From Caryophanales bacterium (GTDB lineage: Bacteria; Bacillota_I; Bacilli_A; Izemoplasmatales; UBA1188), in NCBI GenBank assembly GCA_016287865.1, contig JAEEXP010000008.1, forward strand, positions 1 through 42,162: a stretch of DNA of 42,162 bases, read 5' to 3'. The translations under genes were made by a program, and so were the position numbers. A model generated the notes under the pieces. That model was not told the DNA's origin, made no database searches, and was given only the letters and a program-made list of their open reading frames with translations. Every line of letters starts with the position of its first letter. The first letter of the stretch is position 1. Below are positions 3,229 through 41,440 of this stretch, piece after piece.

Positions 3229-5130
3229 TTATCCTCCAATACCTTTATCAATAGATGCGCCTGTTACCTTATTAACTGTAAGGTTAACGCCAATTACGAA
3301 TACAACTAAGAATAAGTTAATTCCGTTTGCAAGTTGACTAATACCGTTTCTAGAATAGTATTCAAGTACGTTAGTAGTGAGTGTTACAGATGATGTGATA
3401 AGAGTGAATAGTGTATATTCTCTCATACAAGAGATAAATGGTAGTAAGTAACCACTTATGAAGCTTGATTTTTGAATAGGGAATATAATTCTAGTCATTC
3501 TCTTTGCCCATGGGCAACCAGTAATGATTGCTGCTTCTTCAATTTCACCTGATAATTGAAGCATTGCGTTTGTACCAGATCTTGATGCGAATGGTAAGAA
3601 CTTAATACCACCGGCAATAATACAAATTAGAATAGCTGAGATTTCCTTCATAGTAATAGCAACATCTAAGAATCCAAATGCTTTAGTCTTTGATAATGCA
3701 AAGAACATAGCTCCAAAGCTTAATGCAGGGATTAAGTATGGAAGGAATGCAAGACTTGATACGAAGTTCGCAACTCTTGATCTTCTCTTTCTAGCAACAG
3801 CATAACCGATTAGAATACCTGATGTACCACAAATAAGTGATACAACAATCGCTACTAGTACTGTTCTACCAAAGGCAGATAAAATTGTTTTATTTAGGAA
3901 TAAACCTTTTGTTGAGAATTGTCTTGCCTCAACAAAGGCATCTTCTACGACAGGTTTATTACTAAACCAATATTTTAAGTCTATTGTATTTAGCATACCC
4001 GGAGTATCTTCCAAGCTATATATAATAAATGTTAATAGTGGAACGATTGCAAAGAATGTTACTAGAATAGCTATAACTGTAAAGATAGGCCATTTAGCTT
4101 TTCTTAGGTTAATCTTAGAGATTTGTCCAGATTTACCTGATACAGTAGTAAAGCTTCTTCTACTCCTTGTAAACCAGTTATTTATTGTAAGAATTAATAC
4201 ACTGAAGATCATTAATATAGTAGATATTACATAACCTTCACCTTTTCTACCACCAATAAGGGCACTTCTTAATGTTATCGATATGGACTGGAATGAACCA
4301 TCTGCATTTAAGAATGCTGGAACTGAATAACTTGAGATTGATGATGCGAATACTAAAAGTACTGTTGATACTAAAGCAGGAGCTACAATTGGAAGAGTGA
4401 TTCTTCCTAAGATTTTAGCTCTTGATGCTTTAAGAATTACTGCAGCTTCTTCTAAGTTAGCATCCATATTTCTTAAGATACCACCTATCAAAATATAGGC
4501 AAATGGTGCATAGTGTAGACCTAAAACGAATGCTGTAGGCCACATACCAAATACGAGCCACGATGGAGCACAAAGTCCAGTGATTGATTGAAGCATACCA
4601 ACATCAGATGCAGCTTCAATTCTAGTGTTTTGGAAGAAGTTTACCCAGAACATCGCAATTGACCATGATGGCATAATGTATGGGAATACAAACACAGTAG
4701 AGATAAATTTCTTTCCAGGAATATTAGTTCTTGTGATTAAGAAAGCTAATGTTCCACCAAATAATACTGCAATTGTACAAGCAACTAGTGCCATAACTAC
4801 AGATAAGCCAAGAGGACGCCAGAAATAATATTTTGAATATCCAGGAGTTTCTTTATTAAAGAGTAAGTATGGCCAATGATAGAATGTATATTGACCAGAT
4901 TTTACGCCTGCATCCCAAATGTCATTAATGTTTCTAGCTTCAGTAAAAGAATGTATTTTAAATGAATCTAGAATCATTGTTGCAAGTGGATATAAAACAA
5001 CCACAGATAGTATTATTCCAAATACTAATAAAATTACATTAGAAGGTGTAGAGAAAAAATGTTTTATACTATTCCATAATCTTGTAAAAAATAATGAAGT
5101 CTTATTTTGTTGAACTACATTTTCAGACAT
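3229..5130 (-). CDS. ABC transporter permease, fused two-domain FbpB/ThiP-like
   Basis: 633 aa, two sets of TM helices each with an EAA-type loop (LEEAAVILKASRAKILGRITLP; IEEAAIITGCPWAKRMTRIIFP). Confidence 0.9.
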   Translation of the reverse strand: MSENVVQQNKTSLFFTRLWNSIKHFFSTPSNVILLVFGIILSVVVLYPLATMILDSFKIHSFTEARNINDIWDAGVKSGQYTFYHWPYLLFNKETPGYSKYYFWRPLGLSVVMALVACTIAVLFGGTLAFLITRTNIPGKKFISTVFVFPYIMPSWSIAMFWVNFFQNTRIEAASDVGMLQSITGLCAPSWLVFGMWPTAFVLGLHYAPFAYILIGGILRNMDANLEEAAVILKASRAKILGRITLPIVAPALVSTVLLVFASSISSYSVPAFLNADGSFQSISITLRSALIGGRKGEGYVISTILMIFSVLILTINNWFTRSRRSFTTVSGKSGQISKINLRKAKWPIFTVIAILVTFFAIVPLLTFIIYSLEDTPGMLNTIDLKYWFSNKPVVEDAFVEARQFSTKGLFLNKTILSAFGRTVLVAIVVSLICGTSGILIGYAVARKRRSRVANFVSSLAFLPYLIPALSFGAMFFALSKTKAFGFLDVAITMKEISAILICIIAGGIKFLPFASRSGTNAMLQLSGEIEEAAIITGCPWAKRMTRIIFPIQKSSFISGYLLPFISCMREYTLFTLITSSVTLTTNVLEYYSRNGISQLANGINLFLVVFVIGVNLTVNKVTGASIDKGIGG

Positions 5131-31260: not shown

Positions 31261-31485
31261 TCCTTAAAACAAAAATTTGTCTTAAGGACGAATAATAATC
31301 CGTGGTACCACCTTAATTCTAGATTTCTCTAGCACTTGGTTTGTGTTAACGCAGGTCTTGCGGGAGTGATTGGCTCCACTCGGGAATGAATTCATAAGAC
31401 GCTAATATTGTGATCTCACCATCCACAATTCTCTTGGATTAGTTGAATCTTATTACTACTTTCCTTCAACGTTTTCATATTATTA
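31261..31485 (-). promoter_or_regulatory. T-box leader (Phe) upstream of pheST with terminator
   Basis: Minus strand has AAGGTGGTACCACGG at 31297-31314 and TCCTTAAGACAAATTTTTGTTTTAAGGA plus T-run at 31261-31288; upstream AGTAGTAA and GGTGAGA stem I-like motifs. Confidence 0.92.
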
Positions 31486-40429: not shown

Positions 40430-40648
40430 ATGTTTAAACAATTTGATAATGTAGAACTAACAAAAGAATATAAAGGTGGAGTAGATTTAGGTATTAAACC
40501 TGGACTAGTTTATCCAAAAGGAAGTAAAGGTGTAATCGTTCAAATGTATGGCGATATGGCTATGGTTGAAATAGTTGAACCTAAAGTAGCTAATAAAATG
40601 GTTACAGTTAGAATCGCTGATTTAAAGCTAGTTGAAGTACATTTCTAA
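40430..40648 (+). CDS. Small protein, DUF4926-like
   Basis: 72 aa with start, RBS (GGGGTGA) and FDNVELTKEY...GSKGVIVQMYGDMAMVEI pattern. Confidence 0.45.
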   Translation: MFKQFDNVELTKEYKGGVDLGIKPGLVYPKGSKGVIVQMYGDMAMVEIVEPKVANKMVTVRIADLKLVEVHF

Positions 40649-40678: not shown

Positions 40679-40788
40679 TTGTACTATGGAGAAATAGTCA
40701 TGAAAATTAAAATATTTACCCTGTTAGTACAACTTAATATAATAAACACAAGCCTCGTTGTGAAAATACACAGCGAGGCTTTATTTTT
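40679..40788 (+). ncRNA. Candidate small structured RNA
   Basis: TATAGT -10-like box at 40670-40675, TTGTACTA/TAGTACAA inverted repeat, then strong terminator; no stop-terminated ORF inside. Confidence 0.35.
40751..40788 (+). terminator. Strong Rho-independent terminator
   Basis: AGCCTCGTTGTG-aaaata-CACAGCGAGGCT then TTATTTTT. Confidence 0.9.
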
Positions 40789-40844
40789 GCGAAAATTAGC
40801 AGTATTTAAAACAAATTTTATTATAAATAAGGAGAATTTTATAT

Positions 40845-41150
40845 ATGTCTAGAAGTGAATTTAGATGGAACAAAAAGAGAAAACATTATGCATACTTACA
40901 CAAGGATGATGGAGAAAAAAGATTAAACATACTAATTACATCAAAACCTTATGTTCTACGTAAAGGCAAGATTCAAATGATCAATATTCCTTTATATAAA
41001 CATCCGAATAACAAAGAGGGACAATATTATCTAGTACCAAGAAACTATGCAGATAACAAAAACTCGTTTGACAATAAAATATACAAGTGGAATTGGAATA
41101 AGAATGATAAAAGGAAAGTAAAAAGAATTAAAAAGAATAAATACAAATAA
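40845..41150 (+). CDS. Small highly basic protein of unknown function
   Basis: AAGGAG RBS; 101 aa MSRSEFRWNKKRKHYAYLHKDDGEKRLNILITSKPY...KWNWNKNDKRKVKRIKKNKYK. Confidence 0.7.
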   Translation: MSRSEFRWNKKRKHYAYLHKDDGEKRLNILITSKPYVLRKGKIQMINIPLYKHPNNKEGQYYLVPRNYADNKNSFDNKIYKWNWNKNDKRKVKRIKKNKYK

Positions 41151-41189
41151 AAAGTCGGCTACGAAGCACTATTTCAGCAAATCACCGAC
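41145..41189 (-). ncRNA. Candidate small RNA unit C (third of three tandem units)
   Basis: -35 TTGACT (41219-41224), 17 bp, -10 TATAGT (41196-41201), 6 nt, GTCGG...CCGAC stem (41189-41185/41158-41154), T-run. Confidence 0.65.
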
Positions 41190-41222
41190 ACAATTACTAT
41201 ATCAAACAATTATTCATAAGTC

Positions 41223-41277
41223 AAATAAAAAAACCGGTATCGAACTCACATCAATTAAGACAGGTATATCAACCGGC
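41223..41277 (-). ncRNA. Candidate small RNA unit B (second of three tandem units)
   Basis: -35 TTGATA (41307-41312), 17 bp, -10 TATATT (41284-41289), 6 nt, GCCGGT...ACCGG stem, TTTTTTTATTT. Confidence 0.65.
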
Positions 41278-41310
41278 ATAATTAATATAGCAAATAATTA
41301 TTCATATATC

Positions 41311-41354
41311 AAATAAAAAGTCGGCTACGACACCAGTAAAGGTAAATCACCGAC
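41311..41354 (-). ncRNA. Candidate small RNA unit A (first of three tandem units)
   Basis: -35 TTTACT (41384-41389), 17 bp, -10 TAAATT (41361-41366), 6 nt, GTCGG...CCGAC stem, TTTTTATTT. Confidence 0.6.
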
Positions 41355-41393
41355 ATATGTAATTTATCATATTTTATTTATTTAGTAAATAAA

Positions 41394-41415
41394 AATAGAC
41401 TCTCGCGAGTCTATT
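41394..41415. terminator. Bidirectional terminator downstream of tuf
   Basis: AATAGACTC-tcgc-GAGTCTATT flanked by A-run and T-run. Confidence 0.85.
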
Positions 41416-41440
41416 TTTATTATTTGTTAGTGATTAGTAA

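Follow-up and report, generated by a model that had tools for sequence, protein, structure and literature searches.

Three small hairpin RNA units and the gene that converges on them, which encodes a basic 101-amino-acid protein with a predicted MazF fold, probably form an RNA-antitoxin/toxin module that acts like a type III system and is built differently. The three units belong to this gene and not to a free-standing small RNA locus. They lie in a stretch of 42,162 nt, hereafter the window (GenBank assembly GCA_016287865.1, contig JAEEXP010000008.1, positions 1 to 42,162, forward strand), from a MAG of a Caryophanales bacterium (GTDB Bacillota_I; Bacilli_A; Izemoplasmatales; UBA1188) with 6.7% contamination. 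The features of the locus are, in window coordinates:

40845..41150, plus strand: gene of the 101-aa basic protein with a predicted MazF fold, the proposed toxin (ORF; profile family; AF2 and Foldseek)
41145..41153, minus strand: T-run of U3, overlapping the last bases of the protein gene (sequence)
41154..41189, minus strand: U3, type-A hairpin RNA, the unit closest to the gene and the proposed cognate antitoxin (sequence; covariance model match with E 1.5e-11, the model including U3; covariation)
41196..41224, minus strand: U3 promoter, TTGACT-17-TATAGT (sequence, automatic detector)
41224..41232, minus strand: T-run of U2, its last Ts running into the U3 -35 (sequence)
41233..41277, minus strand: U2, type-B hairpin RNA with core ACCTGTCTTAATTGATGTGAGT (a type seen elsewhere beside proteins of the FRYN/FRFN subtype)
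41284..41312, minus strand: U2 promoter, TTGATA-17-TATATT (sequence, detector)
41311..41319, minus strand: T-run of U1 (sequence)
41320..41354, minus strand: U1, type-A hairpin RNA, ACC...GGU apical variant (sequence; covariance model match with E 8.3e-11, the model including U1)
41361..41389, minus strand: U1 promoter, TTTACT-17-TAAATT (sequence, automatic detector)
41391..41420, no strand given: tuf terminator hairpin, which bounds the array and is outside the system (sequence; same hairpin after tuf in the congener G003)

Each of the three units has its own promoter, one closed hairpin and then a T-run. Direct reading of the minus strand gave TTTACT-17-TAAATT-6-G(41354) for U1, TTGATA-17-TATATT-6-G(41277) for U2 and TTGACT-17-TATAGT-6-G(41189) for U3. 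The first-pass annotation had described this three-unit architecture, and its 17-bp spacers, its 6 nt to the first stem base and its interval 41145-41389 were confirmed to the base; the 5-bp stem it gave becomes a closing stem of 6 bp once a G-U pair is included, and the layout of hairpin plus T-run is as described. The RNAs would be about 45-55 nt long. U1 and U3 are of one sequence type (A) and U2 is of another (B), so that the order of the array is A, B, A. Single-strand folding compared with shuffled sequences gave z values of -4.5 (U1), -1.4 (U2) and -2.0 (U3); U1 and U3 fold better than shuffles. No Rfam family covered the units at the gathering score in the window or in 19 related loci, which agrees with the earlier description of a multi-copy small RNA locus of no named family, and a relaxed threshold returned sub-gathering chance matches only, with no credible weak match around the units. 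A tRNA search found none, and the 261-bp array, compared by BLAST with 100 relatives, gave AT-rich noise only.

Relatives of the protein were sought in other genomes. The window protein is missing from 100 related genomes, including six congeners. A scan of 85,462 GTDB genomes identified eight relatives, in rumen Erysipelotrichaceae and Bacilli MAGs, and at all eight the gene is followed directly, on the opposite strand, by a convergent U1/U3-type (type-A) hairpin unit with a T-run, whose promoter is recognisable in nearly every case. The genomic contexts of these eight genes vary (upstream of rplU, beside a tRNA and rpsU, beside tuf, and others). Profile searches, which covered genomes of one class and reported all their homologs from that class, used rounds of 10, 16 and 31 sequences, which brought the genomes with homologs to 12, 28 and 30 of about 397. 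A genome carries up to four homologs, and gene-RNA-gene-RNA clusters occur, as in L096 (G312 contig C12, 80721-82025), where three tandem toxin-like paralogs are each followed by their own opposite-strand hairpin RNA. The first-pass annotation had seen in the basic protein gene nothing more than the boundary of the array; the gene is instead the partner, strictly linked to the RNA, and its family extends far beyond the window.

We quantified this association with an automatic detector at 41 distinct homologs, looking on the opposite strand and at most 250 nt from the stop codon for promoter hexamers with a 16-18 spacer, a stem of 5 bp or more that begins 4-9 nt past the -10, and a T-run at the stem end. 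Units were detected at 26 of the 41 homologs, many of which are less than 35% identical to the window protein, and at 0/41 in the same-strand control. Dinucleotide shuffles gave 10/410 and control ORFs of the same loci 5/118, an enrichment at the homologs of p ~1e-14 (Fisher), so the arrangement noticed at first in the window exceeds chance. Since the detector was designed after the first loci had been seen, the fair test is that on 20 further homologs obtained later, at ten of which it found a unit (p ~8e-7). Units missed by the detector are visible by eye at L037, L039, L073, L100 and L148, and also at L075-L077, where the RNA is upstream of the gene, yet still on the opposite strand. No clear RNA unit was seen at L110, L112 and the second gene of L099. 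The 6-nt spacing is constant in the window units, as first noted, and near-constant overall; it does not hold in L037 and L039, where near 3365-3395 (minus strand) the type-A RNA has an extra 5' hairpin (CTTGCAAAA(A)GCAAG) between the promoter/-10 and the main stem. That the units are an intergenic repeat of a generic kind, or a DNA hairpin element that matches promoters by chance, is the least probable reading of these data: promoter-like matches are easily found in AT-rich DNA, as the control ORFs illustrate, but the strand bias of 26:0, the scarcity of units in shuffles, the near-constant spacing and the compensatory RNA changes described below all argue against it.

Covariance searches placed confident type-A matches only beside the gene, in 8/8 gene-bearing genomes; among the 397 class genomes the window genome was the single one with confident matches, again only beside the gene. 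The DNA around the gene differs from locus to locus, and the RNA is its sole constant partner, with no conserved protein antitoxin adjoining. Every unit is a complete transcription unit, as would suit a multi-copy regulatory small RNA locus unrelated to the adjoining protein, the general reading first given to the array; we regard this as very improbable, because the units occur only beside the protein family and do so across many genomic contexts. In L040, L041 and L078, the protein gene is broken and the RNA unit is intact, which is the order of loss expected of a toxin and its antitoxin. The distribution of the family is patchy, with several paralogs per genome, as in toxin-antitoxin loci. 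Viral contigs yielded no relatives of the protein and no exact match to the type A or B RNA patterns, and tblastn against plasmids and phages found nothing with the window protein or with L075, L085, L097 and L100 (not each member being run in both collections).

Several loci of the family showed further elements. In L163 and L164, a mutually conserved opposite-strand segment of about 140 nt, with promoter-like and terminator-like ends, replaces the mini hairpin. At L085, three similar units of about 75 nt follow one another in tandem, each with TTTACA-17-TTTAAT, and a related unit of the same type is present in L080. L037, L039 and L054 share a motif, TTTTTTGGACAAA-N..-CGATTAGTAA or CGTCTATTGG, about 30-50 nt upstream of the toxin-like gene; it resembles an alternative-sigma (ECF-like) promoter, and in L054 it also precedes the neighbouring gene, about 250 nt downstream.

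Alignment of 12 type-A RNAs with MAFFT revealed as shared features a 6-bp stem, GAU conserved opposite NUC, a 3-nt 3' bulge GUA and an apical RCY/RGY stem. In this structure 88.9% of cells are paired, changes on both sides are seen at 6 pairs, and the covariation score is 0.388, compared with 0.219 in shuffles and no more than 0.144 in slid versions. Type-B RNAs (U2 and its relatives) have the core CTTAATTGATGTG, or a near version of it, and fold in a way common to their type. The RNA type follows the protein. In genomes with the gene, the diverged paralogs L050, L051 and L054 carry FRYN/FRFN instead of FRWN; the nearest RNA is type B for these three and type A for all FRWN genes, so that protein subtype and RNA type agree at 12/12 loci (Fisher p 0.005). 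RNA distance also tracks protein distance over 10 pairs (Mantel r 0.887, p 5e-5), and within type A alone (r 0.65, p 0.0009), although part of this co-variation could be expected from linkage alone. The order of RNAs differs at other loci, being B, A in L050 and A, A plus a B upstream in L040. The window MAG (G000) and G106 have a B unit and no B-type protein was found there, G106 having been searched with the window protein only; such B units may be remnants or may protect against sibling toxins.

These properties bear on a type I-like antisense mechanism, in which the hairpin RNA would pair with the 3' UTR of the toxin mRNA and block translation or trigger decay. The gene and the array are convergent, there is no plus-strand terminator between them, and the 3' end of the RNA overlaps the last bases of the ORF. 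The two transcripts are complementary only if the mRNA runs past the stop codon, and since it may extend that way into the array, antisense action keeps some probability. A Bacillus type I system, SR6/yonT, has an antisense RNA antitoxin that overlaps the toxin 3' end (PMC5848175). However, pairing requires neither a conserved fold nor a conserved loop sequence, whereas here the fold covaries and the GAU/UCGUA loop has been preserved; the RNA type follows the protein subtype, and extra units of a different type are retained; the RNA is upstream of the gene in L075-L077; and the protein is no hydrophobic peptide but is basic and MazF-like. We therefore consider an antisense mechanism unlikely.

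The 101-aa protein has 29 K+R against 8 D+E and a beta-rich model. It matched no family in Pfam, NCBIfam, PHROG or PADLOC; a Pfam scan of 31 family members at E 10 gave no sequence-level match to PemK/MazF or ToxN, and sequence-profile searches of the PDB returned nothing credible. AF2 models had a mean pLDDT of 86.6 for the window protein (10 sequences) and 95.3 for the distant member L100 (31 sequences). Among the PDB matches that Foldseek listed for the window-protein model, nearly all are MazF toxins and one is CcdB. The 50 listed for the L100 model are all MazF or annotated MazF-like toxins, with probabilities of 0.90-1.00, a modest best E of 2.5e-3 and TM values of 0.50-0.63, mostly 0.55-0.63. 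In a viral library, the structure matches of high probability were PemK-like proteins and endoribonucleases. His14, the Thr of [IL]T[SH], Leu50, Tyr62 and Asp88 (window numbering) are invariant or nearly so; by analogy with MazF and ToxN, His14 and the Thr of [IL]T[SH] may occupy the places where catalytic residues would be expected. A MazF fold is no proof of toxicity, since the superfamily also includes the non-nuclease CcdB, and we regard the protein as a putative RNA-cutting or otherwise growth-arresting toxin. The basic charge and the strict RNA-protein pairing would also suit a non-toxic ribonucleoprotein, in which the protein binds or processes RNA and the small RNA is its regulatory or guide component. 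We find this doubtful, given that MazF toxins dominate the fold matches, that the family is patchily distributed, includes paralogs, sits in variable contexts and has protein pseudogenes whose RNA is retained, and that the type-A apical loop is short, with no long variable guide-like stretch. Among the roles first proposed for the array (regulatory, antitoxin, decoy or guide-like), the evidence favours antitoxin and does not favour decoy or guide.

The putative module was then compared with known systems. Type III toxins belong to the MazF/Kid/CcdB fold class, and in ToxIN, CptIN and TenpIN a toxin of this class adjoins a short structured RNA (PMC5086642), as it does here with a predicted fold; RNA monomers are about 34-50 nt in type III (PMC12373285), compared with a predicted 45-55 nt here. 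A type III operon has promoter, tandem repeats, terminator and toxin on one strand, and its precursor is cut by the toxin (PMC5086642). In contrast, the units described here are on the opposite strand with their own promoters and terminators (26/41 antisense, 0/41 same strand), and no tandem-repeat precursor is predicted: each unit ends in its own T-run, so the monomer would be transcribed directly. The putative toxin, at about 100 aa, matched no ToxN, CptN or TenpN sequence family in Pfam, NCBIfam or PADLOC. Because it differs in operon layout, repeat precursor and toxin sequence family, we did not file the module as type III. Type III antitoxin RNAs are pseudoknotted; the predictions made for the unit RNAs gave nested folds only. 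AbiF/RCd22, an RNA-regulated abortive infection system that its authors link to the origin of Cas13, likewise pairs a toxic protein with a small structured RNA that restrains it and that has a SigA promoter and a terminator; RCd22, however, is upstream of abiF on the same strand and cotranscribed (PMC12373285), and the literature covered gives AbiF no MazF likeness. The predicted protein fold is shared with type II MazEF, but the constant partner here is an RNA and not a conserved protein antitoxin. The convergent antisense RNAs of type I systems (Bacillus, Clostridium) are also encoded on the opposite strand, close to the 3' end of the toxin, each under its own promoter and ending at its own terminator, whereas the RNA here is structured, conserved and barely overlaps the ORF. 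The literature covered, with few subscription journals or preprints, contained no description of the own-promoter opposite-strand layout.

The origin of the window contig was also considered. The 1.33-Mb MAG carries three different tuf genes, on contigs C50, C48 and C6, with 73-100% identity to the window tuf, which suggests mixed binning. Since the window tuf is 98% identical to that of G003, the contig may come from a close relative of the binned genome. G003 lacks the cassette, though it has the same hairpin after its tuf; a different gene follows there, and no clean empty site for the window cassette was obtained. Elsewhere in the window, a T-box leader was found at 31281-31478 (minus strand, 116.6 bits). 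A 72-aa ORF at 40430-40648 (plus strand), with a weak KOW-like match (Pfam E 0.11), is just upstream of the 101-aa gene, and a terminator-like hairpin (AGCCTCG...CGAGGCT) with a T-run lies between the two at 40749-40789. The 72-aa ORF was rejected as a partner of the system, being missing from 6/6 congeners.

In the RNA-antitoxin/toxin reading that we prefer, the 101-aa gene would produce a small, very basic MazF-fold toxin, and each convergent unit a hairpin RNA, antisense to the toxin gene and already monomer-sized because each unit has its own promoter and terminator. The RNA would bind the protein through the conserved internal loop (GAU facing NUCGUA) and the apical stem, and the bound RNA would block the toxin active site, as ToxI blocks ToxN; the Mantel r of 0.887 and the broken protein genes beside intact RNAs bear on this binding indirectly. 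The extra units of other type (U2, U1) may protect against other toxins of the family, or descend from them. The chances seem to us about even that Bacilli contain a large undescribed class of modules in which separately transcribed hairpin RNAs from the opposite strand neutralise MazF-fold toxins of about 100 aa, and extra units (U2 and U1 of the window, L040, L050) confer RNA-only immunity against sibling modules.

To our knowledge, few families of RNA antitoxins acting on proteins are known, and the operons described for these place RNA and toxin on the same strand. The opposite-strand layout would escape a search based on repeats upstream of a toxin, and the protein family is present in about one in 13 of the sampled class genomes (30/397). 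The layout shows a route to antitoxin monomers without processing by the toxin, and the module would supply many small, diverse and naturally matched RNA-protein pairs for studies of specificity. It could also account for orphan mini-hairpin genes in gut and rumen bacteria.
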